DNA from: Prochlorococcus sp. AG-673-M19
Lineage (GTDB): Bacteria; Cyanobacteriota; Cyanobacteriia; PCC-6307; Cyanobiaceae
DNA: 58,456 nucleotides
Assembly: GCA_003211115.1 (NCBI GenBank)
Contig: QCTP01000006.1
Location: 1 to 58,456, forward strand
Direction of reading: 5' to 3'
Shown: one piece after another, positions 803 through 54,171 of the stretch
Layout of the letters: the number at the start of each line of letters is the position of its first letter
How positions within the stretch are numbered: position 1 is the first letter of the stretch
The notes under the pieces: generated by a model
The model's database searches: none
What the model was told of the DNA's origin: nothing
What the model saw: the letters and a program-made list of their open reading frames with translations, nothing else
Made by a program: the position numbers and the translations under genes

Positions 803-1644
803 AGAAAAGTTGAACCGACAGATTTATCTATTGAAATTTTGCAATTTCCAGTAAAAAAAACATTTTCTGTAGTTAAGTATTTCCTCTTAATAATTGCCAA
901 ACCTTTAATTGTATGAGAGCTTAATCTATTAATACTAGTAATGTAACCAACAACTTTTTCTTTCTTTTCGTTATTGTAAATATTTTTGTCATTAAACTCT
1001 AAATTATATTTTGAATCTATTACGGTCAATACTCTGATTTCCTGTTTTAAAGATGAAACATTTCTGATTTTTGACATTGTTTCTTGACCCAAATAACAAC
1101 CTTTGTTGAAATCTATAAGATCATTGAGTCCCAATTCAAGAGGATTAAGTTTTCCATTGATTTCATTATCTAAAGATGGTATAGCCTGATTAATCTTCCA
1201 AAGTTGCAAATCATTATTACTCATATTGTTTGGATTATTTTTATAAAAATTATATTCTTTGTCTTCATTTTGAAAAAAAATAGGTTGATTAATTTTCCAC
1301 GAATTCATATCATCAACTTCCTGAATTCTGTTAATTGAAAAAGTCTCACTTAATGCGACATCATCAGACGGAAAAATAATATCATTAAAGTATTTTCTTA
1401 TTTCAATAGTATTTCCTGCAAGGACAATTACTTCTAATTTATCTTCTAAGAAATTAATTTCCAGTATTGACTTTAAAATTCCATTGGGGGATAACCAGCA
1501 AGTTTTTAAAACCTTATTATTTAAATCATAAATATTTCCTGTTGTTATTCCATTTAAGAATCTCTTACTATCTTTTCCTGTAATAGAAAAGCAATCAAAA
1601 ATCTCAAGCCAAATTTGTTTTTTATTTTCTTTGCTTTCTGACAT
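799..1644 (-). CDS. ygfZ: YgfZ/GcvT-family folate-binding protein
   Basis: The product has 281 residues and carries the YgfZ signature KGCYLGQE at residues 181-188. It is preceded by an aminomethyltransferase-like (GcvT-fold) region with the GITTGN segment near residue 32. YgfZ proteins bind tetrahydrofolate and help make or repair certain iron-sulfur clusters, which is a useful role in an oxygenic phototroph. The length is slightly short for the family. The gene lies 3 bp downstream of pyrE on the same strand, so the two are probably cotranscribed. It converges on the RecB-like gene. Confidence 0.88.
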   Translation of the reverse strand: MSESKENKKQIWLEIFDCFSITGKDSKRFLNGITTGNIYDLNNKVLKTCWLSPNGILKSILEINFLEDKLEVIVLAGNTIEIRKYFNDIIFPSDDVALSETFSINRIQEVDDMNSWKINQPIFFQNEDKEYNFYKNNPNNMSNNDLQLWKINQAIPSLDNEINGKLNPLELGLNDLIDFNKGCYLGQETMSKIRNVSSLKQEIRVLTVIDSKYNLEFNDKNIYNNEKKEKVVGYITSINRLSSHTIKGLAIIKRKYLTTENVFFTGNCKISIDKSVGSTFL

Positions 1645-1647
1645 TAT

Positions 1648-2208
1648 TTAGATAAAGTCTTTTATTGAAAATAAGCTTTTTAATTGTACATTTTGTTCTT
1701 TCAAAGCCTCATATCCTCCTTCTTTTCTATCAACAATAGATAAAACTTCTTTAACTAAAAAATTATTTTCTCGTAACTTATTGATTGCTTTAATAGCTGA
1801 TCCAGCAGTAGTTACCACATCTTCCAAAACAGTTACTAATATTCCTTCACTTAATATTGGGCCCTCAATACCAGCTTTTGTTCCATATTGCTTTATTTCT
1901 TTCCTGATAATTAAAGCATCAAGTAATAATCCTTTAGAAGCAGCTGTTACTATTACACCACTAACCAAAGGATCTGCTCCCAAAGTTAAACCTGCAACAG
2001 CTTTTGAAGTTGGATCCATTAATTCTAAAAACAAACTACTTATTAATTGCAAGCCAATACCATTTAAAGATACAGGTTTGCAATTTAGATAATGAGGACT
2101 TTGTTTACCAGAAGCTAAGGTAAAATTTCCTTTCTTATAAGATTTTTCAATTAAAAGTTTTAATAAATTTTCCCTATCTAAATTATATTTCTGCGAAAAA
2201 TTGTTCAT
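1648..2208 (-). CDS. pyrE: Orotate phosphoribosyltransferase
   Basis: The 186-residue product joins orotate to PRPP to give OMP in de novo pyrimidine synthesis. The PRPP-binding signature [14 protein letters not shown] sits near residues 125-138, and the N-terminal part has the usual [16 protein letters not shown] substrate region. Length is normal for a bacterial PyrE. It is the first gene of a likely pyrE-ygfZ pair, and its ATG lies about 140 bp from tRNA-Met, which is transcribed the other way. The overlapping reading frame on the opposite strand is an antisense shadow. Confidence 0.95.
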
Positions 2209-2349
2209 TAATAGAAGGTCTTCTTATATTTCAAGATTAGGAGAAAAAAAAGAAATCTCACAAAAACTTACTAAGTTGGTGCTTTTTGAAATATTATTTT
2301 TATATTGTATATAAAAAAACATTGTAATTAATCATTACTACAAAATCCT

Positions 2350-2422
2350 GGGGGTGTAGCAATCTGGTGAATGCACCAAACTCATAATTTGGCTAAGGCG
2401 AGTTCGATCCTCGCCACCCCCA
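2350..2422 (+). tRNA. tRNA-Met (anticodon CAT)
   Basis: A full cloverleaf can be drawn. The acceptor arm GGGGGTG (2350-2356) pairs with CACCCCC (2415-2421), followed by discriminator A. The anticodon stem CCAAA/TTTGG encloses loop CTCATAA with anticodon CAT at 2383-2385. The T-arm is GGCGA-GTTCGATC-CTCGCC. No CCA is encoded. The fully paired first acceptor base pair argues against initiator tRNA. A lysidine-modified tRNA-Ile(CAT) cannot be excluded by eye, but elongator Met is preferred. Confidence 0.9.
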
Positions 2423-2440
2423 TCACTAATTTGTTATCGA

Positions 2441-3709
2441 ATGAAAATAACTTTTCTATTCTTACTTTTGATATTCCCGGCTTTTTTCGCTGCGAGTGAA
2501 CTTTCATTTTTATTGCTAAGGCCTAGTAAAGTTTTAAGACTAATAGAAGAGAAAAAAACAGGAGCATTTTCAATTTTAAAAATTCAAAAAAGATTTAGAT
2601 CTTCGCTAATAGCATCTCAATTTGGGGTAACAATTTCACTTATAGCCATAGGTTGGTTAAGTAAAAGTTTGGCTAATGATTTTTGGAACGAAAATATAGT
2701 TTTAAACAGGATATATGATCTGATTTTATTTTTACTCTTAGTACTTGTGGTAACCCTCTTATCCGGTCTTATTCCCAAAGCACTAGTAATTAATAATCCA
2801 GAATCAGCCGCTTTAAGATTAACTACAATTTTTGATGCAGTTCGTAAAGGGATGCAGCCTATTGTTTCTATAATCGAATTTTTTGCTAGTGCTTGTTTAA
2901 GATTATTTAATCTAAATAACAAATGGGATTCATTAAATTCAGGCTTATCAGCGGGTGAATTAGAAACATTAATAGAAACAGATAATGTTACGGGATTAAA
3001 ACCTGATGAAAAAAATATTCTTGAAGGTGTTTTTGCTTTAAAAGATACTCAAGTCAAAGAAGTAATGATTCCAAGATCTGAAATGGTAACTTTGCCAAAA
3101 AATATTACCTTTGCTGAGCTTATGAAACAAGTTGATCAAACAAGACATGCTCGTTTTTTTGTAATCGGAGAGTCTCTTGATGAAGTTTTAGGAGTTATAG
3201 ATTTACGTTATTTAGCAAAACCAATATCTAAGAGTGAAATGGAAGCGGATACTTTGCTAGAACCTTTCCTATTACCAGTCACTAAAGTAATAGAAACATG
3301 CTCATTAGCAGAGATATTACCTCTCGTAAGAGATTATAATCCATTTTTGCTTGTAGTTGATGAACATGGTGGGACTGAGGGCCTTATAACTGCGGCTGAT
3401 CTTACTGGAGAAATTGTTGGAGAAGAAATGCTCAATAGCAGAGTATATTCTGATATGAAAATGTTGGATAATTTCTCTAAGAGATGGTCAATATCTGGTA
3501 AAGCAGAAATAATAGAAATAAATAAAAAGTTAGGTTGTTTTATTCCAGAAGGATCTGATTATCATACACTTGCAGGATTTCTTCTTGAAAAATTTCAAAT
3601 GGTGCCAAAAATTGGAGATAGTTTAGATTTTAAAAATATTAAATTTGAGATAATTTCAATGTCTGGCCCGAAAATTGATCGTGTAAAAATAATTTTGTCA
3701 AAAAGTTAA
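2441..3709 (+). CDS. CNNM/CBS-domain (HlyC/CorC-type) membrane protein
   Basis: The 422-residue protein has three or four hydrophobic segments in its first ~170 residues (a CNNM/DUF21 domain). A cytosolic CBS-domain pair follows, beginning near VKEVMIPRSEMVTL (~residue 200) and including LLVVDEHGGTEGLITAADL (~305-323). The C-terminus is a CorC/HlyC-type domain. Relatives are linked to magnesium or other divalent cation transport or sensing, and the old hemolysin label is historical. The start lies 18 bp after the tRNA-Met gene. The transported ion cannot be read from the sequence. Confidence 0.85.
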   Translation: MKITFLFLLLIFPAFFAASELSFLLLRPSKVLRLIEEKKTGAFSILKIQKRFRSSLIASQFGVTISLIAIGWLSKSLANDFWNENIVLNRIYDLILFLLLVLVVTLLSGLIPKALVINNPESAALRLTTIFDAVRKGMQPIVSIIEFFASACLRLFNLNNKWDSLNSGLSAGELETLIETDNVTGLKPDEKNILEGVFALKDTQVKEVMIPRSEMVTLPKNITFAELMKQVDQTRHARFFVIGESLDEVLGVIDLRYLAKPISKSEMEADTLLEPFLLPVTKVIETCSLAEILPLVRDYNPFLLVVDEHGGTEGLITAADLTGEIVGEEMLNSRVYSDMKMLDNFSKRWSISGKAEIIEINKKLGCFIPEGSDYHTLAGFLLEKFQMVPKIGDSLDFKNIKFEIISMSGPKIDRVKIILSKS

Positions 3710-3759
3710 ATTTGACACCCTATGAAGGATAATAACTAAACATACATGGACTATAAGAT

Positions 3760-4764
3760 ATGAAACCAACCTCATCCTCAGTAAAGGTTGGCGTTATCGG
3801 AATAGGAAATATGGGATGGCATCATGCTCGCGTGCTTAGTTTGCTAAAAGATGCAGATTTAGTAGGAGTTGCTGATCCAAACATGAATAGAGGTAAGCTA
3901 GCAATAGAGCAATTTCAATGTGAGTGGTTCAAAGATTATCATGATCTACTCTCTAAAGTTGATGCAATTTGTATTGCTGTTCCTACACTTCTTCATCACA
4001 AAGTAGGGCTAGATTGTCTTAATGCAGGTGTTCATGTTCTCATAGAAAAACCTATTGCAGCTAATGAGCAAGAGGCAAAATCTTTAATAAATGCAGCCAA
4101 ACTTAGTAATTGTCTTTTACAGGTTGGGCATATTGAAAGATTTAATCCTGCATTTAGAGAGTTAAATAAAATTGTGCGAAATGAAGAAATTGTCGTCTTA
4201 GAAGCAAGAAGGCATAGCCCTCACGCTGATAGAGCAAATGATGTATCAGTTGTAATGGATTTAATGATTCATGATATTGATCTAGTTCTCGAATTGGTTA
4301 ATTCAAAAATACAGAAACTAGCCGCTGTAGGAGGAAGAAACAGCGATGGCTTAATAGATTATGTTAATGCTACTTTAGTTTTCAACAATAATGTCATTGC
4401 AAGCTTGACTGCTAGCAAAATGAGTCATAAAAAAATCAGAAGTTTAAGCGCACATTGCCAAAACGGTCTAGTTGAGACAGACTTCTTAAATCATTCTCTA
4501 CAAATCCATAGAAAAGCCCATGAATCCTATACAGCTGATCATGGTGAATTAGTATATAGAAACGATGGATATGTGGAAGAAGTAAGCACAACCTCTATTG
4601 AACCTCTTTACGCGGAATTGGAGCATTTTCTTAAATGCTTACAAGGTAAAGAATCTCCAGAAGTTGATGGGGAACAAGCCTCAAGGGCATTAAAAATTGC
4701 AGATTTTATTGAGTGTGCAGTAGAAAACTCTGGTGATGCAATATCACTAGAGATACCTATCTAA
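3760..4764 (+). CDS. Gfo/Idh/MocA-family NAD(P)-dependent oxidoreductase
   Basis: A 334-residue protein with an N-terminal Rossmann fold: VGVIGIGNMGWHHARVL (~residues 10-26) holds the GxGxxG dinucleotide-binding loop. The family lysine motif EKPIA follows near residue 95. The C-terminal half is the GFO_IDH_MocA sheet domain. These enzymes oxidise or reduce sugars or inositols, or belong to sugar-nucleotide pathways. The substrate here is unknown, and the neighbours (a CNNM membrane protein and psbK on the other strand) give no clue. The ATG at 3760 is the first in frame and gives full family length. Confidence 0.85.
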   Translation: MKPTSSSVKVGVIGIGNMGWHHARVLSLLKDADLVGVADPNMNRGKLAIEQFQCEWFKDYHDLLSKVDAICIAVPTLLHHKVGLDCLNAGVHVLIEKPIAANEQEAKSLINAAKLSNCLLQVGHIERFNPAFRELNKIVRNEEIVVLEARRHSPHADRANDVSVVMDLMIHDIDLVLELVNSKIQKLAAVGGRNSDGLIDYVNATLVFNNNVIASLTASKMSHKKIRSLSAHCQNGLVETDFLNHSLQIHRKAHESYTADHGELVYRNDGYVEEVSTTSIEPLYAELEHFLKCLQGKESPEVDGEQASRALKIADFIECAVENSGDAISLEIPI

Positions 4765-4778
4765 CAAATAAATAGATT

Positions 4779-4919
4779 TTATTTAAATCCAACGGCAGCT
4801 TGCCAAACAAATACTAATAAAAAGAAAAATAAAGGTATTAAAGGAAGAACATCAACTGTTGGAGCGAAAGCCTTATATGCTTCAGGCAATTCAGCGAATG
4901 TATTTAAAAGAGTGAGCAC
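4779..4919 (-). CDS. psbK: Photosystem II protein PsbK
   Basis: A 46-codon gene with a GTG start (4917-4919). The product begins [18 protein letters not shown] and ends with a single transmembrane helix and the PsbK-like end [11 protein letters not shown]. PsbK is a small PSII core subunit near CP43; the mature form begins after the short propeptide, at about KAFAP. An upstream in-frame TAA shortly before the GTG leaves no ATG option. It lies 33 bp downstream of tgt on the same strand, so tgt-psbK is probably one transcript. Confidence 0.93.
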
Positions 4920-4952
4920 CTTTTTAATAAATTAATTAATTATCTTATGACG

Positions 4953-6071
4953 TTACCACGTATGGCGAGCAATAGAGGATCTTTTCCAAGGAGCGAAATC
5001 TATTGTAAAACAATTATCTTTAATTGCAGTAGAAATTGCATTTGTAAATCGTATTAGATAAGAAATATTATGCAAACTAATTAGAGTCAAACCTAATATT
5101 TCATCATTTCTCACTAAGTGATGCAAGTATGCACGAGAGTATGATTTACAAGTTTCACATTTACAAGTCTTATCTATTGGAGAAAAATCATTTTTAAAAC
5201 GGGCATTTCGTATATTTAATCTTTCATCATTAAACAATGCCGTACCATGTCTTCCTAATCTAGTTGGCAAAACACAGTCAAATATATCGAATCCTTTTGC
5301 TACAGCTAAAGAAATTTCTCTTAAAGAGCCAATTCCCATTAAATATCTTGGTTTATTTATTGGTAAAAATTTCGGGACGTAATTAATCACACTATGTATT
5401 TCTTCGACTGACTCCCCAACACTGACACCTCCTACAGCTATTCCAGGCAGATCAAAAGAGCTTGTAAATTTTGCGCTATGTTCTCTTAATCTTGGATACT
5501 TACCACCTTGAACTATTCCAAATAATGCTTGATTTGATTTCTGATGAGTCTCAACACATTTTTGCAACCATGAATGAGTTCTTTGTAAAGACTCCTCAAT
5601 ATCATTTTCGTTAGCTGTGTGCGGAGGACAGTGATCAAAAGCCATCGCAACATCCGAACCAAGATCCATTTGAATCTGCATTACTTTTTCAGGTGATAAA
5701 AATACATGACTACCATCTCTTGGATTTTTAAATTCCACACCTTTATCAGAAATATTATTTAATTTGGCCAAACTAAAAACTTGATATCCACCTGAATCCG
5801 TAAGAATAGGCTTATCCCAATTCATAAACTTATGTATTCCACCAGATTCTTTAACTAGTTTTTCTCCAGGTTGCAGATGAAGATGAAAGGTATTTGAAAG
5901 AATCATTTCTGATCCTGTAGAAATTAACTGCTTAGATGAAATTCCTTTAACCGTTGCCAAAGTGCCCACAGGCATAAATCTTGGAGTGTTTACCTGACCC
6001 TTTGGGGTATAAAAAATACCAGTTCTTGCCTCTGTATTACTGCAATTCGATTTAATTTCAAATTCAAACAC
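4953..6071 (-). CDS. tgt: Queuine tRNA-ribosyltransferase (tRNA-guanine transglycosylase)
   Basis: The 372-residue enzyme exchanges guanine-34 of GUN-anticodon tRNAs for a queuosine precursor. The catalytic-site motif [13 protein letters not shown] has Asp92. [10 protein letters not shown] is the tRNA-contact region, and CKCETCK near residue 305 is the start of the C-terminal zinc site, completed by a downstream histidine. Length is typical. It lies upstream of psbK in the same direction. The region between tgt and cobS (6072-6170) must hold the promoters for both divergent genes. Confidence 0.96.
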
Positions 6072-10835: not shown

Positions 10836-11393
10836 TCAATTTGTTTTTGGATAATAAGTAATTTTGTTTGTCTTACGAAGTAAAGCTAACCTTCCTGGAC
10901 CTGCACATAAAAAATAAAGAGAAATAGCTCCGTATATAAAAGAAAGCTCAAAAGCATAATTATGACCTTCAACTACTGCTAGTGGGAATCCTTCCAAACC
11001 AGTATCTAATAGGTGAAAATAAACTGCAAAAGCCATCGTAGAGAAGAGACCAAGTGAGCATAGTCTTGCAAAAACTCCTAAAGCTAATCCTAATGGACAT
11101 ACTAATTGAGTAATAGCAGCTCCATAGGTCCAAAGGACAGGATCACCTGGTAAGAATGGAAAATATTTACCCACAACAAATTCTCCAAATCCTTGAGGAT
11201 CTTGAAGCTTTTCTAAGCCATGATGAATCATCAAAACACTAAAGCCAATCCTTAGAATAAAAATAGATAATTCTCCTAATATATTTACTTCAGAATTTGA
11301 AGGATTAGCCACAACAACCTCGACCTTTTGAGGAGCCTTTGAAGCATTCATTTTGGTTGTTTGATTTTGATTCGATTGTGTTTTGTCTTCCAT
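10836..11393 (-). CDS. DoxX-family membrane protein
   Basis: A 185-residue protein with about 45 polar N-terminal residues, rich in Gln, Asn and Lys, followed by four predicted membrane segments. The DoxX block ILRIGFSVLMIHHGLEKL is followed by FGEFVVGKYFPFLPG. DoxX-family proteins are poorly understood; some associate with redox or oxidative-stress systems. Nothing here identifies a partner. It ends one base from the convergent purH stop codon. Confidence 0.82.
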   Translation of the reverse strand: MEDKTQSNQNQTTKMNASKAPQKVEVVVANPSNSEVNILGELSIFILRIGFSVLMIHHGLEKLQDPQGFGEFVVGKYFPFLPGDPVLWTYGAAITQLVCPLGLALGVFARLCSLGLFSTMAFAVYFHLLDTGLEGFPLAVVEGHNYAFELSFIYGAISLYFLCAGPGRLALLRKTNKITYYPKTN

Positions 11394-11485
11394 ACTTCGT
11401 TAATTTTTGATTATTCTAGATAATAATGTAGATCTTTAGTTAATATGTAATTAATAAAGTTAAAACTAATCGGAAATATTAATAT

Positions 11486-12682
11486 TTATTTTGCGATTGC
11501 TATTAATTTTTCAATAACATCCGCAACTATCTTATCTGGAGTAGAAGCTCCAGAGGTAATACCTACTTTGATTTCCCCCCCAGGAAGAAAATTCTTTTTT
11601 AAAATCATTTCAGATTTAAGTGGTTTGTGGTGAATAGAATTTTCCTGAACTGAAATCCTTTCAGGTGTATCAATATGAAAAGAAGAAATATTTTTATTTA
11701 TAGCTATTTCCTGCAGGTGAGTTGTATTTGAAGAATTAAATCCACCTATTACCACAAGGATATCTAAATCTTCATCAACTAATGAAAACATTGCATCTTG
11801 TCTTTCTTCTGTAGCATCACAAATAGTGTTGAAGGCTAAAAAGTGACTATTTAATTTTTCTGGCCCAAATTTATTAAGCATTGTTTTTTCGAAAACTTTT
11901 CCTATCTCTTCTGTCTCGCTTTTCAACATCGTAGTTTGATTAGCAACTCCAACCCTATCTAAATCTTTATCTGGATCAAATCCATCAGAAAAAGCTTTAG
12001 CAAATTTATTAAGAAACTCATTTCTATTCCCTCTACCCAAAATGTATTCAGAAACGTAATTTGCTTCTTCAAGGTCAAGTACCACAAGATATTTTTCAGC
12101 AAATGAACTAGTAGCAAGAGTCTCTTCATGTTTAAATTTACCGTGAATAATAGAGGTAAAAGTATGCTTTTTATGTTTTTCTACCGTATGCCATACCTTA
12201 GAAACCCAAGGGCAAGTTGTATCAATTATATGACAACCTTTTTCATGAAGAAGTTTCATTTCTTGGACAGTCGCACCAAAAGCAGGCAAGATTACCACAT
12301 CTCCATTGGACACTAAAGAAAAATCTTTAATACCATTTTTTGCTGAAATAAATTTAACATTCATTTTTCTTAAATGATCATTAACTGATGGGTTATGTAT
12401 TATTTCGTTTGTTATCCAAATATTCTCATTAGGATAATGTCTTCTGGTTTCGTAAGCCATAGCAACAGCTCTTTCAACTCCCCAACAAAACCCAAATGCT
12501 TTGGCTAATTTAATATTTAATCTACCTTTTGTATACGTAAAACTATTATCTCTAATTGAAGTTATTAAATCACTTTGGTAAGCTTCTTCTAATGCTTTAG
12601 CTCTTTTAGTAGGAGAGTCAAAACCTCTTCGGTTATACCTTTCCGAATGATGAAGGGATTTTCTAAAAGCTTGAGTATCCAT
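11486..12682 (-). CDS. ispH: 4-hydroxy-3-methylbut-2-enyl diphosphate reductase
   Basis: The 398-residue enzyme makes IPP and DMAPP in the last step of the MEP isoprenoid pathway, feeding chlorophyll phytol tails and carotenoids. The three iron-sulfur cysteines are visible: Cys66 in [10 protein letters not shown], Cys157 in DTTCPWVSK and Cys288 in [11 protein letters not shown]. It has the N-terminal extension typical of cyanobacterial and plant IspH compared with the ~316-residue enterobacterial form. Its start lies about 40 bp beyond the amt1 terminator, so it has its own promoter or is served by read-through. Confidence 0.95.
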
Positions 12683-12718
12683 ATTTTTGATATTACAACA
12701 TTTTTAATAATTTTTTGC

Positions 12719-12746
12719 AAAAAAAAAGAAACCTGACATAAGTCAG
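12719..12746 (-). terminator. Rho-independent terminator of amt1
   Basis: On the minus strand a CTGAC-TTAT-GTCAG hairpin (12733-12746) is followed within a few bases by a run of nine T (12719-12727 on the plus strand read as A). It sits 27 bp after the amt1 stop codon and before ispH, so it should separate the two transcripts. Confidence 0.75.
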
Positions 12747-12772
12747 ATCTCTTTAATTTTATTTAAATAAGT

Positions 12773-14233
12773 TTATTTGGCAGATGCAAAGTCTGGATAA
12801 GATTCCATTCCATGCTCTGAGATATCTAAACCTTGAGTCTCCTCTTCTTCAGATACACGAATTCCTCCGAATAATCCTCCGATTACAGACCAAGCGATCC
12901 AACATGTAACAAGTGTCCAAATAGCATAAGCTGCGGCACCAAGAGCTTGAACAAGAAGTAGAGTAATTCCACCACCATTGAACAATCCCATACCTGCTCC
13001 ATCTCCTTGAACTGCAGTTCCCCAAAGTCCAATAACTAGAGTACCCCATACACCACAAACTCCGTGAACAGAGAACGCGCCAACAGGATCATCAATTTCA
13101 GCTGCATCAAGAGCTGCAACAGAAAATACAACGATAATTCCACCAACTAATCCGGCGAACCAAGCTCCTGCAAGTGTCATATCACCACAACCTGCGGTAA
13201 TACTTACTAAACCAGCAAGAATACCGTTGATGATCATGGTTAGATCAGGCTTCCCTGAAGTTAAGGTAGAAACAATAGTTGCACCGATAGCACCAGCTGC
13301 TGCTGCAAGAGTTGTTGTTACAGCAACATATGGAACCCATTGATCCATTGCAAGTTGAGAACCAGGATTAAATCCATACCAACCTATCCATAGAATCAAA
13401 GCACCTAATGTGGCAATAGCCATATTATGTCCAGGCATAGCCTGAGGTTTCCCATCAGAGTATTTACCAATTCTTGGTCCAAGAAGCATAGCTCCTACTA
13501 AACCTGCCCATGCTCCAACTGAGTGAACAATTGAAGAACCTGCAAAGTCAACGAAACCAAGAGAATCAAGCCATCCACCATTCCATTTCCAGCTTCCGGC
13601 AATTGGATAAATAAAAGCTGTTAATACAATCGCAAAAACAACGAATTCACCAAATTTAACTCTTTCAGCAACAAGTCCTGAAACGATAGTAGCTGCAGTA
13701 CCTGCAAATGCAGACTGGAATAAGAAATCAACTGTTGGAACTAATCCAGCGTCAGTAACCATATCAGCAGTTACTGTTGGATCAAAAAATAGGCCTCCAA
13801 AATATAGCCAACCGTCAGCAACACTTCCTCCGTACATAAGCGAGTAGCCAATAAACCAATAGGAGGTTACAGCTAAAGCAAATACGAAAAGGTTTTTGGC
13901 GAGTATGTTAACGGCGTTTTTAGACCGACACATACCTGCTTCAACCATAGCGAAACCGGCGTTCATGAAGATCACTAAAATGGTAGCGATCAAAAGCCAT
14001 AAATTGTTAGCAAGAAAAGCTGCATTCAACTCAGGTAGATCAGCTGCATGAGCTGAAAGATTAAAAATACCTAAACCAAACAAAGCTAGAGGAACAGTCG
14101 CAAGCCACAACATTGAGCGGTTTGAACTGAATCCACGAATACTCCTCAAAAGGAGCATAGGTCCATTAACAAGACTTGCATCTTGTAATTTGGACCTAGA
14201 GCGCCTTTGAGGCGTTTGCAAAGCAGTGGTCAT
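12773..14233 (-). CDS. amt1: Ammonium transporter Amt1
   Basis: A 486-residue polytopic protein of the Amt/MEP/Rh family, starting at MTTALQTPQRRSRSK. A positively charged N-terminus, a signal-like hydrophobic segment and about eleven helices follow. Family motifs include MNAGFAMVEAGMCRSKN, GSSIVHSVGAWAGLVGAML and DDPVGAFSVHGVCG, with the two pore histidines in the last two blocks. A longer frame with a TTG start seven codons upstream exists, but the ATG fits better. Codons look more biased than in the neighbours, as expected for a highly expressed gene. An NtcA-type box lies ~84 bp upstream, consistent with nitrogen control. Confidence 0.96.
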   Translation of the reverse strand: MTTALQTPQRRSRSKLQDASLVNGPMLLLRSIRGFSSNRSMLWLATVPLALFGLGIFNLSAHAADLPELNAAFLANNLWLLIATILVIFMNAGFAMVEAGMCRSKNAVNILAKNLFVFALAVTSYWFIGYSLMYGGSVADGWLYFGGLFFDPTVTADMVTDAGLVPTVDFLFQSAFAGTAATIVSGLVAERVKFGEFVVFAIVLTAFIYPIAGSWKWNGGWLDSLGFVDFAGSSIVHSVGAWAGLVGAMLLGPRIGKYSDGKPQAMPGHNMAIATLGALILWIGWYGFNPGSQLAMDQWVPYVAVTTTLAAAAGAIGATIVSTLTSGKPDLTMIINGILAGLVSITAGCGDMTLAGAWFAGLVGGIIVVFSVAALDAAEIDDPVGAFSVHGVCGVWGTLVIGLWGTAVQGDGAGMGLFNGGGITLLLVQALGAAAYAIWTLVTCWIAWSVIGGLFGGIRVSEEEETQGLDISEHGMESYPDFASAK

Positions 14234-14316
14234 AAATAAAAAATTAGTCTGCAAAAAAACAGGAGGTCCTGTTTCCTTTCATATATAATTTTGCTCAGAA
14301 AACTTATGTATGTCTA

Positions 14317-14330
14317 GTAGTCGTTTATAC
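14317..14330 (-). promoter_or_regulatory. NtcA-type binding site upstream of amt1
   Basis: The exact palindromic consensus GTA-N8-TAC occurs once here (GTA 14317-14319, TAC 14328-14330). Its inner edge is 83 bp before the amt1 ATG. AT-rich candidates for a -10 box (TTATAT or TATATA on the minus strand) lie roughly 28 bp downstream, a little farther than the ~22 bp usual for class II NtcA promoters. NtcA activates ammonium transporter genes in cyanobacteria, and ntcA itself is in this window. Confidence 0.62.
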
Positions 14331-14407
14331 CAATTTAATAGTTGCACATTAAAAAATTCTTGTTAAATTGAAAGATTTTCTAAATTAAATCAAAATTCAC
14401 TATCTTA

Positions 14408-15154
14408 TTACGCTAATTTCAAAGGTCTAAATCCACTCCAAGTTATATGGTCTTGATGGAATTCAAAACAACATGGAATTAAAAGCATACCTGCATTAGT
14501 TGATTCTCTAAAAAGCTTTCCGTACAATGGATCTGCATCATCGCTAGGAGAGAAATAATCTACATCTTTCCTCGTAATACAAGGCACTAAAACACTTTTA
14601 CTTTCAGGAATTAAAGCTTTTAATTCTATTAAATGTTTTTGTCCTCTTTTCGTCTCAGTATCAGGGAAAAGAGCTACATTATTTTTTGTCCAAGTGGTAT
14701 TTTTAACCTCGATATAAATGTTACGATTATCAGGATTTGAAGATTTTGGAGTTAAAAGAAAATCAATTCTGCTTTTCTTATCTTTACCGTAAGGGACTTC
14801 GGACTTGATTTTAGCTATATCACCGAGTTTATCTTTAAGTAAGTTTTGTTCAATAACTTTTCTAATCAATTTATTAGCAAATAATGTATTTATCCCAACC
14901 CAAACTTCTTCGTTATTTGCTCCTGATACTTTTACTTGTTCCCAAGTCCAAGATAGCTTTCTTGAAGTAGACGACGAAAAGCTAATCCTTACTTGAGCTC
15001 CCTCTTTTAAAAGTCCCTTCATTGGACCTGTATTAGCACAATGGGCAGTAACTATTTCTCCATTATCAATTTGAATATCTGCAAGAAATCTTTTGTATCT
15101 TTTAATTAAGACGCCTTCAACTAATGGTTCGAATTCAATTATTCGATTCTTCAT
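14408..15154 (-). CDS. sfsA: SfsA-family DNA/RNA nuclease
   Basis: A 248-residue SfsA protein. The N-terminal OB-like part contains [15 protein letters not shown] (~35-49). The C-terminal part holds a PD-(D/E)xK-like core with SRIDFLL and YIEVKNTTW, then [13 protein letters not shown]. SfsA was named for sugar fermentation stimulation in E. coli; the fold suggests a nuclease or DNA-binding role. The start ATG is followed by a normal family N-terminus. It diverges from murJ. Confidence 0.9.
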
Positions 15155-15234
15155 AAAATTTCAAGTACATTAAAAACAAAATATAATGGAATCCAAATCT
15201 TCTTGAAAAAGTTTTAATCAATATCACATTTCAC

Positions 15235-16818
15235 ATGCATTCGTATTTTAAAAATAACGTGGTTTCAATTTCGTTTGCTACATCTTTAAGTAAATTAGCA
15301 GGTTTTCTAAGACAAATATTTATAGCTGCCGCCTTTGGAATTGGAGTAATATATGACGCATTTAATTACGCTTACATAATCCCAGGTTTTTTACTTATTA
15401 TTATTGGTGGAATTAATGGCCCATTACATAATGCTGTAGTTGCAGTACTTACTCCACTAAATAGAAGAGACGGGGCAGTTGTCCTGACAAAAGTAAGTAT
15501 TAAAATAACTTTATTATTTTTTATTCTAGGAGTAATAGTATATTTTAATTCGGGTTTTCTCATAAATTTAATAGCTCCAAATTTAAATGCTGAAGCTAAA
15601 ACTATTGCATCTTACCAATTAAGAATCCTAACTCCTTGTATTCCTCTTTCTGGTTTTATAGGCTTAAGTTTTGGAGCTTTAAATTCCAGAAATAAATTTT
15701 TCATATCAAGCATAAGTCCTGCTATCACAAGTCTGGTAATAATTTTATTCATTTCAATTAGTTGGATTTTAAATCTTCAGAATACAAATTCTAATTATTT
15801 GTTTTATTCAGGATTATTAGCAATAGCAACCTTAACAGGTACTTTCATACAATTTGCTATTCAATGCGTGGAAATTCATAAGATAGGCTTATTTAGATTC
15901 AAATCAGCTTGGCTTTCAATTAATGATGAAGAGAAAAGAATTTTTAAATTATTTACTCCAGCATCGATTTCATCAGGTCTAGGGCAAATAAATGTTTTTA
16001 TTGATATGTTTTTTGTTTCAGGATTTCAAGGTGCAGCAGCAGGACTAGCTTATGGTAATTTTCTTATTCAAGCACCACTTGGAGTCTTATCAAGCTCTTT
16101 GATTCTTCCACTACTTCCAAAGTTATCCAAATTCAAAAGTAGTAAAGAGAAAAATAATTTAGAAAAAAGTTTAATATCAGGCATAGAATACTGTTTCTTA
16201 ACAACTTTTTTCTTAACTGGTTTTTTTATCACGTTTAATAATCAAATTGTGCAATTTGTTTTTCAAAGAGGAGTTTTTAATTACGAAGCCGTATTTTTAG
16301 TAAAAAATATTTTAATTGCCTATGCTGTGGGAATTCCTTTTTATCTTTACAGAGATTTATTAGTTAGAACTTACTATTTAATTGAAAAACCTGATTTACC
16401 TTTTAAATTATCTTTAGCAGGAATAATACTAAATATTTTCTTTGATTGGTTTTTAATTGGAGCTCCAATTAATGATGTTAAAAATTTATTCCCCTATAAT
16501 TTTGGAGTTATTGGCATAATCCTATCCTCAGGAATAGTTAACGCGATTATATGTGTTTTTCTTTTCAATAGTTTTGAAAAATATAAAATAAATTTACCAA
16601 AAATTGTTTTATTAAAAAAAATTGCCCTTATTTCATTATCATGCTTAATTTCAAGCACTCTATGCTATCCATTTATTAAAAATATCGAGGCACATAACTC
16701 AACCATTTTGAATTTAGCGACATTGATAATGGGGTTTTTAATATTCTCAATAATTTATTTCATGATAACAAAATTATTTGGGGTAAATAAATTAAAAAAT
16801 GTATTTAAGAGCAATTGA
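15235..16818 (+). CDS. murJ: Lipid II flippase MurJ (MviN)
   Basis: A 527-residue membrane protein of the MOP exporter superfamily with about 13-14 hydrophobic segments. Family features are the opening ISFATSLSKLAGFLRQI, the FGIGVIYDAFNYAYIIPGF stretch with its conserved DAF, and RGVFNYEA in the second half. MurJ flips lipid II across the cytoplasmic membrane for peptidoglycan synthesis. The gene starts ~80 bp after the divergent sfsA and runs toward the small DUF3181 gene, with 6 bp between stop codons. Confidence 0.93.
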   Translation: MHSYFKNNVVSISFATSLSKLAGFLRQIFIAAAFGIGVIYDAFNYAYIIPGFLLIIIGGINGPLHNAVVAVLTPLNRRDGAVVLTKVSIKITLLFFILGVIVYFNSGFLINLIAPNLNAEAKTIASYQLRILTPCIPLSGFIGLSFGALNSRNKFFISSISPAITSLVIILFISISWILNLQNTNSNYLFYSGLLAIATLTGTFIQFAIQCVEIHKIGLFRFKSAWLSINDEEKRIFKLFTPASISSGLGQINVFIDMFFVSGFQGAAAGLAYGNFLIQAPLGVLSSSLILPLLPKLSKFKSSKEKNNLEKSLISGIEYCFLTTFFLTGFFITFNNQIVQFVFQRGVFNYEAVFLVKNILIAYAVGIPFYLYRDLLVRTYYLIEKPDLPFKLSLAGIILNIFFDWFLIGAPINDVKNLFPYNFGVIGIILSSGIVNAIICVFLFNSFEKYKINLPKIVLLKKIALISLSCLISSTLCYPFIKNIEAHNSTILNLATLIMGFLIFSIIYFMITKLFGVNKLKNVFKSN

Positions 16819-47908: not shown

Positions 47909-49003
47909 TTATTTCATAATTGAGCATTGGGCATGATGGAGAAGAAGGTGGTCTGCCAAGACAAGAGCTACCATTGAGTCAACCATCGGTACTGCCCTTG
48001 GTAGTACACATGGATCATGCCTACCTTTGGCCTTCATTACCACTTCTTTACCATCAGCATTAACAGTTTTCTGTTCCTTTCCAATAGTTGCCGTTGGCTT
48101 AAAAGCTATTTTCATCTCGATATTCTCTCCATTACTTATACCTCCCTGTATACCTCCTGAATTATTTGATATTGTTTTAAGCTTATTAATTTCATTAGTT
48201 TCAATAAACGAATCATTATGTTCACTTCCTCTTAAATAAGTACCTAAGAAACCTGAACCTATTTCAAAACCTTTAGTAGCAGGTAAAGACATCAAAGCCT
48301 TGGCTAGATCAGCTTCCAATTTATCAAAGACAGGCATACCTAATCCTGATGGAACATTTTTTACTAAACATTCAATAACTCCTCCGCAAGAATCACCTTC
48401 TTGCTGTAATTCTTTTATTCTTTCGATCATTTTCGCAGCTACATTTTGATCAGGGCATCTAACTATATTTGAATCTATTTTACTCAAAGTAACTTGATTT
48501 TTATTAACTTGAGAATCGATATCATGTATTCTTTTTACCCAAGAAAGAATCTCCGTATTAAATAAGGTTTTTAATAATTGTTTTGCTATCGCACCTGCAG
48601 CCACTCTTCCTATAGTTTCTCTAGCTGAAGCTCTACCACCTCCAGAATCAGCCTGTATTCCGTACTTTAGATGATATGTACCATCAGCATGAGATGGCCT
48701 GAATACTTTCTCCAAATTACTGTAATCCCCTGGCCTTTGATCCCTATTTCGAACCAACATTGCAATAGGTGTTCCAAGTGTAATCCCTTCCTTTAAACCA
48801 CTAAGTATCTCTAATTTATCTTCTTCACTTCTTGGGGTTGTAATTTTACTTTGACCAGGTCTCCTCCTATCCAATTCTTTTTGTATCAGATCAATATTTA
48901 TTCTTAACTTAGGTGGGCATCCATCAAGAATCACTCCAACTGCTCCTCCATGAGATTCTCCAAAAGTACTTATACGAAAAATTTTACCAAAGCTGCTACT
49001 CAT
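47909..49003 (-). CDS. aroC: Chorismate synthase
   Basis: A 364-residue FMN-dependent enzyme making chorismate from EPSP, the last shikimate step. Signatures are [17 protein letters not shown] at the N-terminus, [19 protein letters not shown] (~residues 117-135) and [18 protein letters not shown] near the end. Length is typical. It converges on the KDPG-aldolase-like gene, with 3 bp between stops, and lies downstream of psbA but is cut off by the psbA terminator. Confidence 0.97.
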
Positions 49004-49065
49004 AAAAATATCAAATTGTTTAAGTTCTACTAACTATTATATGAACTCAATTGAAAATTAAACAT

Positions 49066-49094
49066 AAAAAAAAGCCCCCTTTATAAAAGGAGGC
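49066..49094 (-). terminator. Rho-independent terminator of psbA copy 1
   Basis: Arms GCCCCCTTT (49074-49082) and AAAGGAGGC (49086-49094) with a 3-nt loop form a 9-bp stem including one G-T pair. On the minus strand it is followed by eight T (49066-49073). It separates psbA from aroC. Confidence 0.9.
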
Positions 49095-49115
49095 TTTAAA
49101 TTTAGAACTTTAAGC

Positions 49116-50198
49116 TTAACCGATAGCTGGAGCTGTAAGAGCTACTGTTGTAGACTCAGCTGCTGCTAGATCAAGTGGGAAGTTGTGAGCGTTACGCTCG
49201 TGCATTACTTCCATACCTAGGTTAGCTCTGTTAAGAACGTCGCCCCATGTAGGAACAATCTTACCGTTTGCATCAACAACTGATTGGTTGAAGTTGAAAC
49301 CGTTAAGGTTGAATGCCATTGTGCAGATTCCCATTGAAGTTAACCAAACACATACAACTGGGAATACAGCTAGGAAGAAGTGAAGACTTCTGCTGTTGTT
49401 GAATGAAGCATATTGGAAGATCAAACGACCGAAGTAGCCATGAGCTGCAACGATGTTATATGTTTCTTCTTCTTGTCCGAACTTGTAACCATAGTTCTGA
49501 GACTCTGTCTCAGTTGTTTCTCTGATTAGAGATGAAGTAACAAGTGAACCATGCATAGCTGAGAATAAAGATCCTCCGAACATACCAGCAACACCAGCCA
49601 TATGGAATGGGTGCATAAGAATGTTGTGCTCTGCCTGGAAAACAAACATGAAGTTGAATGTTCCAGAGATACCTAAAGGCATTCCGTCAGAGAATGAACC
49701 TTGACCGAATGGGTATACAAGGAATACTGCGAAAGCTGCTGAAACTGGTGCAGAGTATGCAACACAGATCCAAGGACGCATACCTAAACGGTATGAAAGC
49801 TCCCACTGACGTCCCATGTATGCTGAGATACCAATAAGGAAGTGGAATATTACTAGCTGGTAAGGACCACCGTTGTATAACCACTCATCTACAGTAGCTG
49901 CTTCCCAAATTGGGTAGAAGTGTAGACCAATAGCGTTTGAAGAAGGAACAACTGCACCTGAGATGATGTTGTTTCCGTATAGGAATGAACCAGAAACTGG
50001 TTCTCTAATTCCGTCAATGTCTACTGGAGGTGCTGCGATGAAAGCAACGATGAAACAAGCCGCTGCTGCAAGTAGGCATGGAATCATTAAGACGCCGAAC
50101 CAACCAACATAAATTCTATTGTTAGTTGATGTTACCCACTCACAAAACTGAGGCCAGCCTTTTAACAGCGAAGTACGCTGCTGCTGAATAGTTGTCAT
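49116..50198 (-). CDS. psbA: Photosystem II D1 protein, intact copy
   Basis: A 360-residue reaction-centre protein with five membrane helices. Motifs include [27 protein letters not shown] (the Mn-ligand region), [17 protein letters not shown] with the chlorophyll-ligand His, and the C-terminal [12 protein letters not shown], after which CtpA removes the 16-residue tail. MGRQWEL shows Gln at the position equivalent to D1-130, the D1:1-like form. Residue 69 is Ser. It carries a structured leader and its own terminator. A near-identical copy lies 863 bp upstream of its start. Confidence 0.98.
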
Positions 50199-50296
50199 GA
50201 GTTCGTAAAGTATGTCTCTAACGAGACGTGTAAATAAAAACGAAAAATAAATTTCGCTTCAATAAATATAGTCCAAAATCATAAATAATGTGTAAA
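50199..50296 (-). promoter_or_regulatory. psbA copy 1 promoter and leader
   Basis: Reading toward psbA: a possible -35 TTTACA (50291-50296), 20 bp, a -10 TATATT (50265-50270), a hairpin GCGAAA...TTTCGT-like, and a 5-bp hairpin GTCTC-GTTA-GAGAC (50214-50227) just 16 bp from the ATG. The latter would sit around the ribosome entry site. Structured PhotoRC RNAs are known upstream of psbA in marine cyanobacteria, and this may be related. Element calls are by eye. Confidence 0.5.
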
Positions 50297-50385
50297 CAAT
50301 AATTATGGCAGGTTAAGGTTTTTAATGAATTTGAGATGATATGTACCTTTTGTCTTAATATTTTCTTTGTTATTGAGGTATTAAC

Positions 50386-50514
50386 TTGGTAATAATTGAG
50401 TGGTTATTCAAAGGGAAAAGATCAAAGGAAATAGTTCCCTTATTTAAAGCAAAATATAGAAGACTGGAACTAGAGGCTTCTGGAGCAATTATTTATTGGA
50501 GTGAGAGAATTTAA
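50386..50514 (+). CDS. Candidate 42-residue small protein between the psbA copies
   Basis: A frame from TTG at 50386 to TAA at 50512-50514 encodes a basic, soluble peptide with IEWLFKGKRSKEIVPLFKAK followed by YRRLELEASGAIIYWSERI. A GAGG ribosome-site-like sequence (50375-50378) is about 7 bp upstream. The composition (mixed charge, ordered hydrophobic spacing) looks more coding than the surrounding AT-rich DNA. No homologue is recognised, and it is too short for firm statistics. Confidence 0.42.
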   Translation: MVIIEWLFKGKRSKEIVPLFKAKYRRLELEASGAIIYWSERI

Positions 50515-50843
50515 AATGCAAAATTTATTAAATACAACATTCATAGCAAATTAAAGAATTTATAAGAAAATCTTATCTATTTTATAAATAATACTTATTT
50601 ATAAACGAAGAAATTAAATAAATAAATGAATAAATCAGCATATTTTCCGACTCAAAAAAAATAGATCATATTAGCAATTTCTAGCAAATTAATAAGGAGG
50701 GTTAAAAATTATTGATATTGCACCAGAGTAGATAATTAGATTTTTTCTAGATAACCAACCAGTAATAAATTTATAAAACATCAATTAGTAAATATATTAA
50801 TTTCAAAGGGGAAATTTAACCTAATTTATTTATTTATTTTTTA
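50515..50843. other. AT-rich spacer within the psbA duplication
   Basis: No gene is seen here. Two adjacent hairpins lie at 50562-50576 (ATAAGA-AAA-TCTTAT) and 50581-50605 (10-bp arms TTTATAAATA/TATTTATAAA with a 5-nt loop). Short TAAATAAATG-type runs follow. The hairpins come just after the 42-residue ORF but have no T-run, so they are not convincing terminators. Confidence 0.55.
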
Positions 50844-50945
50844 TTAAAAAGTTTGAATAAGAGAGCCTAATTCTGGAGTATTTAAAAGCATCGCAAAAAA
50901 GGTCAATACTGTTAATAGTACTATCGAAAAATAAAATCCAATCAT
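50844..50945 (-). CDS. Candidate 33-residue single-span membrane peptide
   Basis: ATG at 50943-50945 to TAA at 50844-50846. The peptide is hydrophobic from residue ~3 to ~22 (IGFYFSIVLLTVLTFFAMLL) and ends NTPELGSLIQTF, a layout typical of small photosystem or cytochrome b6f subunits. It does not match PsbI, PsbK, PsbM, PsbT, PsbX, Psb30, PetG, PetL, PetM or PetN as I remember them. It lies between the two psbA copies on the same strand, 66 bp before the psbA copy-2 terminator region. No strong ribosome site is visible. Confidence 0.5.
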   Translation of the reverse strand: MIGFYFSIVLLTVLTFFAMLLNTPELGSLIQTF

Positions 50946-51011
50946 AGAGATAAATTAATATGAACTTAACTTAGAAAGCTGTATCAGAAATATCAAATTA
51001 TATAAATAGAC

Positions 51012-51040
51012 AAAAAAAAGCCCCCTTTATAAAAGGAGGC
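51012..51040 (-). terminator. Rho-independent terminator of psbA copy 2
   Basis: Identical in sequence to the copy 1 terminator: a 9-bp stem GCCCCCTTT/AAAGGAGGC, a 3-nt loop, and eight T on the minus strand. Confidence 0.88.
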
Positions 51041-51061
51041 TTTAAATTTAGAACTTTAAGC

Positions 51062-52144
51062 TTAACCGATAGCTGGAGCTGTAAGAGCTACTGTTGTAGA
51101 CTCAGCTGCTGCTAGATCAAGTGGGAAGTTGTGAGCGTTACGCTCGTGCATTACTTCCATACCTAGGTTAGCTCTGTTAAGAACGTCGCCCCATGTAGGA
51201 ACAATCTTACCGTTTGCATCAACAACTGATTGGTTGAAGTTGAAACCGTTAAGGTTGAATGCCATTGTGCAGATTCCCATTGAAGTTAACCAAACACATA
51301 CAACTGGGAATACAGCTAGGAAGAAGTGAAGACTTCTGCTGTTGTTGAATGAAGCATATTGGAAGATCAAACGACCGAAGTAGCCATGAGCTGCAACGAT
51401 GTTATATGTTTCTTCTTCTTGTCCGAACTTGTAACCATAGTTCTGAGACTCTGTCTCAGTTGTTTCTCTGATTAGAGATGAAGTAACAAGTGAACCATGC
51501 ATAGCTGAGAATAAAGATCCTCCGAACATACCAGCAACACCAGCCATATGGAATGGGTGCATAAGAATGTTGTGCTCTGCCTGGAAAACAAACATGAAGT
51601 TGAATGTTCCAGAGATACCTAAAGGCATTCCGTCAGAGAATGAACCTTGACCGAATGGGTATACAAGGAATACTGCGAAAGCTGCTGAAACTGGTGCAGA
51701 GTATGCAACACAGATCCAAGGACGCATACCTAAACGGTATGAAAGCTCCCACTGACGTCCCATGTATGCTGAGATACCAATAAGGAAGTGGAATATTACT
51801 AGCTGGTAAGGACCACCGTTGTATAACCACTCATCTACAGTAGCTGCTTCCCAAATTGGGTAGAAGTGTAGACCAATAGCGTTTGAAGAAGGAACAACTG
51901 CACCTGAGATGATGTTGTTTCAGTATAGGAATGAACCAGCAACTGGTTCTCTAATTCCGTCAATGTCTACTGGAGGTGCTGCGATGAAAGCAACGATGAA
52001 ACAAGCCGCTGCTGCAAGTAGGCATGGAATCATTAAGACGCCGAACCAACCAACATAAATTCTATTGTTAGTTGATGTTACCCACTCACAAAACTGAGGC
52101 CAGCCTTTTAACAGCGAAGTACGCTGCTGCTGAATAGTTGTCAT
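51062..52144 (-). pseudogene. psbA: psbA second copy with in-frame UGA at codon 75
   Basis: Identical to the intact psbA except for two bases. A G-to-T change on the coding strand makes codon 75 (Gly, in FLYGNN) a TGA stop at 51920-51922. Codon 69 reads Ala instead of Ser. The remaining 285 codons stay open and unchanged, so only a 74-residue fragment would be made unless the stop is read through. The lack of any other decay means the mutation is very recent, or the base is a sequencing or assembly error. Leader hairpins and terminator are intact. Confidence 0.85.
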
Positions 52145-52242
52145 GAGTTCGTAAAGTATGTCTCTAACGAGACGTGTAAATAAAAACGAAAAATAAATTT
52201 CGCTTCAATAAATATAGTCCAAAATCATAAATAATGTGAAAA
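52145..52242 (-). promoter_or_regulatory. psbA copy 2 leader with altered -35 region
   Basis: The -10 TATATT (52211-52216) and the GTCTC-GTTA-GAGAC hairpin (52160-52173) are the same as in copy 1. The sequence just beyond 52238 is different, so the position of copy 1's TTTACA reads TTTTCA on the minus strand here. Promoter strength may therefore differ between copies. Confidence 0.4.
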
Positions 52243-52304
52243 AAACCCTTATACATTAGATAAATTTTTCTTATGAAAAATGAAAATTATCATGATTTTA
52301 AAAT

Positions 52305-53201
52305 CTAACTAAAAAATTCTTCACATACATGATCTGATAAACCTAATACTTCTTTTTTTGTGAAACTCATTGCAATATTCTTTTCTTTATAAGCTACCTC
52401 ACCAATAAAAACAGGCCAAATAGTATCTTCCCCTTTGTAAGTTTGAGTATTACCTTCCATATCCATAAACAATGGATCGCTAGTTTTAATGGGCTTCCAA
52501 TCTTGATTCATCCTCGAAGGATGAATTAAAGCATTGATATTCCCATTTTTCTCTCTTGGATAATCAATACTTCCTTGATGTACATGGACAACTAAATCTT
52601 TCGCAAGTTTTATCTGATTATTTTTTAACTTGTTTATCTCATCTCTTAAAGCCTTAATAATTATTAGAAATCTATTAATAATTTTTGGGTCATAAAAATT
52701 TTGAGCAACAGATCCTATTTCAATTACTAATCCACATGGCCAAGCTTCTACAAGAAATCCAGTTTGTTTTTGATCTTTTTCATGTAAATAAATTGGCAAC
52801 CCAAATTTATGCTGAAGTAAAGCTGCTAAACAGAAATCTTTTATTCTTCTGCCATACATAACAATACTTGTTCCCATATTTGACGTTGTAGTGTGCAAGT
52901 CAATAGCAATATCACAAGGATCTGAACCGTTGACCCCAAACTTTTCAACTAGATAATTTGCCCTATTAATTTCATAAATACTATTATCAAGATTATCTTT
53001 AGTTGAATTAAAAGATCTATTTAAGTCATTATCTATATATCTACATCCCCTTTCAAAAGCTAGAGGGTTTCCTATAGTGTACTTATATTCAATATGATTA
53101 ACGTTAGCATCGTTATGCTTACTAAATTGATTGACGGCCCAAACTGGATTAATTTCATTTCCATGAGTACCAGAAACGATTAATATTTTTTTAAGGGCCA
53201 T
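52305..53201 (-). CDS. Aspartoacylase / succinylglutamate desuccinylase-family hydrolase
   Basis: A 298-residue zinc hydrolase. The start at MALKKILIVSGTHGNEINPV is preferred; an upstream TTG-type extension of 18 residues is hydrophobic and lacks homology. Zinc ligands are His13 and Glu16 (GTHGNE) and His103 (DLHTTTSN); NDLNRSF supplies the substrate Arg. VIEIGSVAQ holds the likely catalytic Glu. The family deacylates N-acyl amino acids such as N-acetylaspartate, but the cyanobacterial substrate is unknown. It lies upstream of psbA copy 2 and is divergent from the glutathionyl-hydroquinone reductase gene. Confidence 0.87.
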   Translation of the reverse strand: MALKKILIVSGTHGNEINPVWAVNQFSKHNDANVNHIEYKYTIGNPLAFERGCRYIDNDLNRSFNSTKDNLDNSIYEINRANYLVEKFGVNGSDPCDIAIDLHTTTSNMGTSIVMYGRRIKDFCLAALLQHKFGLPIYLHEKDQKQTGFLVEAWPCGLVIEIGSVAQNFYDPKIINRFLIIIKALRDEINKLKNNQIKLAKDLVVHVHQGSIDYPREKNGNINALIHPSRMNQDWKPIKTSDPLFMDMEGNTQTYKGEDTIWPVFIGEVAYKEKNIAMSFTKKEVLGLSDHVCEEFFS

Positions 53202-53223
53202 ATTAAAAATAAATTTTAAGTTT

Positions 53224-54171
53224 ATGCAAAATAAATATGTAATTAATTTCGCCAAAAGATCATGGTTTTGGTTTTGGACAAAATTAATGAATGGTTTCGC
53301 GCCTTCAGATATACATGGAAATTATAAAAGGCAGAAAGGAATTTTAATAGATAAGACTTACGATTTTAAAAATAATAATGAAAATTCTTATTTATTAGTG
53401 GGCAATTCTTGTCCTTGGTGTCATAGAACTTTACTAATCTATAAACTTAGGAAACTATCAAAGCAAATCAAAGTTATTTTTTTAGAAACAGATATTGATA
53501 GTGGCCAATGGGTTTTTAATGAAAAATTTAAAGGCTGCGAAAATCTTAATCAATTTTATAAAAAAGCTTTGCATCATAATGTTTTCAGATCAACATTACC
53601 ATTACTATTTAACTTTCAAAATGATCATATTAATGTCTTATCTAGTGAAAGTTCCCAAATAGTAAGTTTACTGGGTTCGATCAAAGGCGATTCCTCTCAA
53701 AAGACACTCAAAATAAATAATTGCGACCAAGATTTATTAAAAGCAATTCAATCTGACATAAATGATGGAGTCTATAAATGTGGGTTTGCTAGAAATCAGA
53801 GATCTTATGAAAAAGCAAGTAAAAGCCTTTTTAAGGCTTTAAGCAAAATAGAAAAGAAGTTAGATAAAAACATTGGTAATTGGATTTGTGGAGAAGAATT
53901 GAGTTATGCAGATATTTATTTATTTCCAACAGTTATTCGTTGGGAATTAATTTATAGGAACCTTTTTAAATGTACTGAAAAAGAAATTTCGGATTTTAAA
54001 AACATAATTAAATGGAGATTAAAGTTTTTTTCATTATCTGATGTTTCTGAAACATGTTTTGATTCTGAATGGAAAAAGGACTATTACAAAGCATTATTTC
54101 CTTTAAACCCTAATCAAATTGTCCCAACACTTCCATCATTAGCGGAAATAATGTTATCAGTTCCAAAATAG
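53224..54171 (+). CDS. Glutathionyl-hydroquinone reductase (ECM4/YqjG-like GST)
   Basis: A 315-residue glutathione S-transferase of the Xi/ECM4 class. The thioredoxin-fold active site is NSCPWCHRTLL, with Cys63 as the likely nucleophile and Cys66 nearby. The C-terminal helical domain has WICGEELSYADIYLFPTVIRW. These enzymes reduce glutathionyl-hydroquinones with glutathione and may protect quinones; the physiological role here is inferred. It diverges from the aspartoacylase-like gene with 22 bp between starts. Confidence 0.87.
   Translation: MQNKYVINFAKRSWFWFWTKLMNGFAPSDIHGNYKRQKGILIDKTYDFKNNNENSYLLVGNSCPWCHRTLLIYKLRKLSKQIKVIFLETDIDSGQWVFNEKFKGCENLNQFYKKALHHNVFRSTLPLLFNFQNDHINVLSSESSQIVSLLGSIKGDSSQKTLKINNCDQDLLKAIQSDINDGVYKCGFARNQRSYEKASKSLFKALSKIEKKLDKNIGNWICGEELSYADIYLFPTVIRWELIYRNLFKCTEKEISDFKNIIKWRLKFFSLSDVSETCFDSEWKKDYYKALFPLNPNQIVPTLPSLAEIMLSVPK

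Follow-up and report, generated by a model that had tools for sequence, protein, structure and literature searches.

Prochlorococcus genomes carry one to three identical copies of psbA, as given in the accessible sections of PMC3441193. The multi-copy genes described there resemble the locus analysed here in that the copies are near-identical and specify the same D1 isoform; unlike them, each of the two copies of genome G000 carries one private change, one of which is a nonsense change. The other described system that bears on the locus is the set of artefacts arising from MDA of single cells. In the available text of PMC1855051, 85% of 475 MDA chimeras were inversions. A large inverted repeat found elsewhere in G000 is of the kind that such chimeras would give, whereas the psbA changes are point differences with no chimeric junction. 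The window (the whole stretch of G000 DNA that was analysed, 58,456 nt) carries the following features at the locus.

49066..50292, minus strand: repeat unit 1 (leader, psbA, terminator), 1,227 bp
51012..52238, minus strand: repeat unit 2 (leader, psbA, terminator), 1,227 bp, two mismatches to unit 1
49116..50198, minus strand: intact psbA copy, on the aroC side, specifying a 360-aa D1 with a private Ser69 (TCT; changed base 49994)
51062..52144, minus strand: second psbA copy, with UGA at codon 75 (51920-51922) and the genus-typical Ala69
51920..52144, minus strand: 74-aa product of the UGA copy, expected if the stop is real
49071..49097, minus strand: terminator hairpin of the intact copy
51017..51043, minus strand: terminator hairpin of the UGA copy
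50265..50294, minus strand: promoter-like site of the intact copy (TACACA-18-TATATT), a match to consensus only
52211..52240, minus strand: promoter-like site of the UGA copy (TTCACA-18-TATATT), a match to consensus only
50386..50514, plus strand: small spacer ORF with a TTG start, 42 aa, a YWSERL-motif small protein (NF058615)

The psbA pair sits between genes that we take, from their protein sequences, to be aroC (47909-49003) and an aspartoacylase-like gene (52305-53255). Alignment of the units upheld the preliminary description of two direct 1,227-bp repeats that differ at two bases, at the same coordinates, a match far above chance. Each unit extends from 94 bp upstream of the psbA ATG to about 50 bp beyond the stop codon. 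The terminator hairpin is the same in both, and the promoter-like sites lie at an equal distance from the ATG. As a class such sites are not above chance (8 found, 12.3 expected in shuffles), and only their matching position in the two units is suggestive of promoters. A scan of nt 48000-53300 against Rfam returned nothing at the gathering score. The intact copy specifies a full-length D1 (TIGR01151, 744.8 bits against a cut-off of 596.05, residues 1-359), and its best solved relatives are photosystem II D1 chains. Under table 11 the UGA copy gives no full-length D1 but pieces of 74 and 233 aa, which score 121.6 and 487.7 bits, both below the TIGR01151 cut-off. The psbA spacers of G023 and G111 also contain the NF058615 ORF, and in G069 and G019 it lies upstream of psbA; its frame is broken in G070, and G182 gave no match by the motif used. 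Another part of the spacer (50629-50742) shows a 73% match to a different contig of the same genome (C15:3290-3402).

The mismatches between the units fall at coding offsets 204 and 222, 18 nt apart. At offset 222 (nt 51922), GGA is changed to TGA in the second copy, so the conversion of Gly75 to UGA reported beforehand is correct. At offset 204, the intact copy has TCT (Ser69, nt 49994) and the UGA copy GCT (Ala69, nt 51940). The Ala69 codon pattern was found in 199 of 266 genus genomes, the UGA copy of G000 included, while a codon-69 pattern covering Ser and some other residues was found in one, the intact copy of G000; the rest matched neither pattern, many having no assembled psbA. At codon 75, a TGA/TGG pattern matched three genomes, two of them through TGG at places outside psbA, and UGA75 is therefore unique to G000 (1/266). 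An exact 30-base pattern had no match among the genome contigs scanned, a set from which the record of the window itself may be missing. Across 118 full, ungapped psbA copies from 109 genomes, codon 69 specifies Ala in 117 and codon 75 Gly in 117, and an internal stop occurs in G000 only. The odd residue of the pair is thus Ser69 in the intact copy and not Ala69 in the UGA copy, and this polarity of the two changes is the main new result. Since both Ser69 and UGA75 are private to G000, there is a single private G>T on the coding strand of each copy, and the pair contains no wild-type gene. The remainder of the UGA copy is as intact as had been described, with its leader (including the promoter-like site) and hairpin in place and all codons 3' of UGA75 identical to those of the other copy. 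The gene carries no further private change, that is, no further decay after any loss of function.

A second psbA is not in itself unusual in Prochlorococcus; the preliminary description had called a dead or switchable one unusual. Matches to the D1 family (psbA or its relative psbD) were present in 249 of 266 genus genomes, and at least 21 of these have three or more, a lower bound, as incomplete genomes may be without psbD or a copy of psbA. Tandem pairs number 14 (G000, G070, G182, G023, G111, G254, G237, G116, G245, G257, G255, G264, G259 and G024), three genomes have dispersed copies (G001, G019 and G022) and in four (G010, G020, G089 and G128) psbA is in pieces, mostly at contig ends. This census is a modest by-product of the analysis. 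The tandem arrangement and an alignable spacer are common to G000, G070, G182, G023 and G111, of which G023 is a single contig. The pairs of the four relatives share with that of G000 the tandem order, a spacing of 1.82-1.95 kb and similar unit borders but, unlike it, are identical over the whole gene and specify Ala69 and Gly75. Within these five genomes the two copies differ at no site in four and at two in G000, while psbA differs between the genomes at 8-23 sites, and the paralogous flanks outside the unit are unrelated (0.27-0.36 ungapped identity). Paralogues are thus closer than orthologues although the duplication is shared, which supports concerted evolution of such psbA pairs. In short-read drafts, copy identity could partly arise from one assembly-graph path being used twice, but it is argued to be real because G023 is a one-contig genome. 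Comparison of the 12 other tandem pairs (G264 set aside) showed seven to be identical across the whole gene and three across the 1,050-1,065 bp compared, with two differing sites in G245 and 18 in G024. The G024 copies (G024:C1:935456-938051), compared over 1,064 bp, are in this respect unlike most other pairs. The G245 pair was considered as a repeat of the G000 pattern and rejected: its two differences are separated by 23 nt; one is a private G>A (V284I) in one of the copies, and at the other site the rarer T is common to a few genomes. It speaks neither for nor against an artefact in G000.

The tandem psbA pair is genuine and belongs to a Prochlorococcus lineage, and the near-identity of its two units is presumably maintained by gene conversion. 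That one gene was doubled solely by misassembly is very improbable. G000 does contain at least one chimeric contig and tandem repeats are hard for short reads, but four relatives, the one-contig G023 included, have the same order and an alignable spacer, and an 863-bp spacer that is present in relatives would not arise from a chimera.

G000 is 66.7% complete in 55 contigs and is probably a single amplified genome. One of its contigs (C22, locus L287; 16,227 bp) begins and ends with the arms of an inverted repeat, each of 5,247 bp (nt 1-5247 and 10981-16227), that match without a mismatch. In all five relatives compared (G019, G023, G033, G111 and G031) the repeated sequence occurs at one locus on one strand, in some as neighbouring pieces and with hits of less than 100 bp elsewhere set aside. 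A native, perfect inverted repeat of 5.2 kb is therefore unlikely, and to judge from the sequence the structure is most likely an MDA chimera. The data were presumably processed by the Prochlorococcus single-cell pipeline of PMC6122165, which in the accessible text consists of k-mer normalisation followed by SPAdes; its benchmarked error rates per 100 kbp are 5.0 mismatches, 3.0 indels and 1.5 misassemblies. The same settings appear in the available part of PMC5519541, where the single-cell assemblies of P. marinus had the fewest mismatches of the benchmark. For another normaliser, Diginorm, the part of PMC5496428 available states that filtered read sets were always of lower mean quality than the raw reads.

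The two private changes of G000 do not look like ordinary psbA evolution. In the 108 other genomes the private psbA changes comprise 68 synonymous, 12 missense and no nonsense changes; leaving out G119, whose three synonymous and six missense changes fall in multi-base clusters, the numbers are 65, 6 and 0, and three of the private changes are G>T or C>A. G000 has no synonymous, one missense and one nonsense change, both G>T, and two random sites would lie within 18 nt of each other with P ~0.03. The clustered changes of G119 (G119:C2:88946-90028, locus L272) are at codons 47 and 125-127 and may reflect recombination or errors. Oxidised guanine can give G>T. The window gives no sign of strong, genome-wide oxidative damage, and this explanation was rejected: of 252 private single-base changes found there at conserved codons, five were G>T or C>A, which is no enrichment and is similar to relatives. 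The count covered 16,939 codons in eleven genomes, had codon 75 outside it and is too weak for 5 errors per 100 kbp.

Disrupted psbA genes occur elsewhere. In the one-contig genome G001, a psbA (G001:C1:223756-224836, locus L074) has one C too many in a run of C near codon 96, which shifts the frame, and an intact copy is at nt 1114290. As in G000, one copy is disrupted and an intact one kept; unlike in G000, the copies are dispersed, the lesion is a one-base insertion in a C run, and the genome is a single contig. A psbA fragment at a contig end of the multi-copy genome G020 (G020:C7:1-327, locus L076) shows GAG changed to TAG at contig position 15, also a coding-strand G>T. Among the matches listed, no report of a broken Prochlorococcus psbA was seen in the titles and abstract openings of Prochlorococcus psbA papers. 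Viral genes were considered as donors of Ser69. Codon 69 is Ser in 17 of the 80 viral psbA loci kept (at least 599 were found), and codon 75 is Gly in all 80. Named phage psbA records fall in the 80-90% identity band at most, while the protein of one viral contig (L130) is 98% identical in a protein-level comparison. No donor tract is visible, because the G000 copies differ by only one base there, and a phage donor is considered needless rather than disproved. Other candidate disruptions in the window were dismissed. An early stop near nt 38659, relative to G033 and G070, is ordinary and lies in an AT-rich, variable C-terminus. Three other G033 queries were interrupted or short in the window: two are, from their positions, frames overlapping other genes, and the third is a gene cut by the window start.

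We judge it likely, with a probability of about 0.7, that UGA75, and probably Ser69, are amplification or assembly errors, and both genes of the living cell probably specify an identical D1, with Ala69 and Gly75. An artefact is the most probable origin of the UGA, given that the intact copy is also privately changed within the same 18 nt and that the genome carries an inverted chimera of the MDA type. It accounts for the presence of a mutation in each copy, for the short distance between the two changes, for their common G>T type and for the lack of synonymous changes alongside them. The two changes would most likely have come from whole-genome amplification of a single cell, from its assembly, or from both. 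Read normalisation could have enriched minority reads carrying errors; with the repeat threaded twice by the assembler, two alternative short paths may have survived as a bubble, and one path may have been placed in each psbA copy instead of being removed. Nonsense changes make up 4.3% of random psbA changes, and at 5.0 mismatches per 100 kbp the expectation for 118 copies (not all of them from single cells) is 0.28 nonsense errors, so that one such error is unsurprising. Several observations count against an artefact. The uniform published rate gives 0.108 mismatches expected in the pair, and two have P ~0.005, which means that errors would need to be concentrated in repeats. The low mismatch number for P. 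marinus in the benchmark of PMC5519541, as far as the accessible text gives it, also counts against it, as do the lack of a general excess of private G>T or C>A changes in the window and the assembly of the 5,247-bp repeat of C22 without a mismatch. An assembler should normally keep the wild-type path if it represents the majority of reads, and the two haplotypes may therefore reflect true molecules, amplified or native. The one-contig genome with a frameshifted psbA indicates that real breakage of psbA is possible.

The main rival is a real and very recent loss of function in one of two redundant copies, which we consider a serious but distinctly less probable explanation. The cell would then make its D1 from the intact copy, with Ser69, and at most a 74-aa fragment from the UGA copy, and the null allele would persist until it is lost or until the neighbouring copy repairs it by gene conversion. 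Redundancy would let a null survive for a time, Ser69 is tolerated in phage D1 (with Gly75 in all 80 viral loci kept), disrupted psbA genes are confined, among the matches listed, to multi-copy genomes (G000, G001 and G020), and some tandem pairs, such as those of G245 and G024, do differ. A real null needs two separate rare private mutations, however, one per copy within 18 nt, each a G>T and neither synonymous, together with survival against gene conversion, which should erase differences and has left most other pairs identical; furthermore the intact copy, expected to be under strong constraint, also bears a private missense change. A variant in which the pair acts as a reversible dosage switch, in which gene conversion by the adjacent copy can always restore the nonsense-silenced one and D1 supply varies between cells, appears very unlikely. 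Least probable of all is that UGA75 is read through or recoded, with both copies giving full-length D1. Every codon past the UGA is intact and the same as in the other copy, and the search for RF2 in G000 yielded no complete gene, which may only reflect the missing third of the genome; RF2 scored above the cut-off in four of five relatives, the fifth (G070) being 69% complete. UGA terminates 9 of the 53 main ORFs of the window, and UGA75 recurs in none of the other genomes. Within the two thirds of G000 that were recovered, no tRNA-Sec match exceeded the cut-off of Rfam, and the eight sub-threshold matches coincided with tRNAs for Leu (two), Gly, Ser, Tyr, His, Trp and Arg. Neither this search nor the stop usage of the window points to a selenoprotein or to UGA reassignment. 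The preliminary description had left four options for the UGA copy: a new pseudogene, a copy kept alive by gene conversion, a read-through gene, or an error. Error is the likeliest source of the UGA, gene conversion in the form of concerted evolution is supported, and read-through is without positive support.

As judged here, the locus mainly calls for caution: where tandem copies in a single-cell assembly differ at single bases, the differences should not be taken as pseudogenes or isoforms without the reads. Were the UGA real, a newly arisen null would have been caught in a photosynthesis gene that is among the most conserved, and Prochlorococcus would be able to lose one psbA copy.
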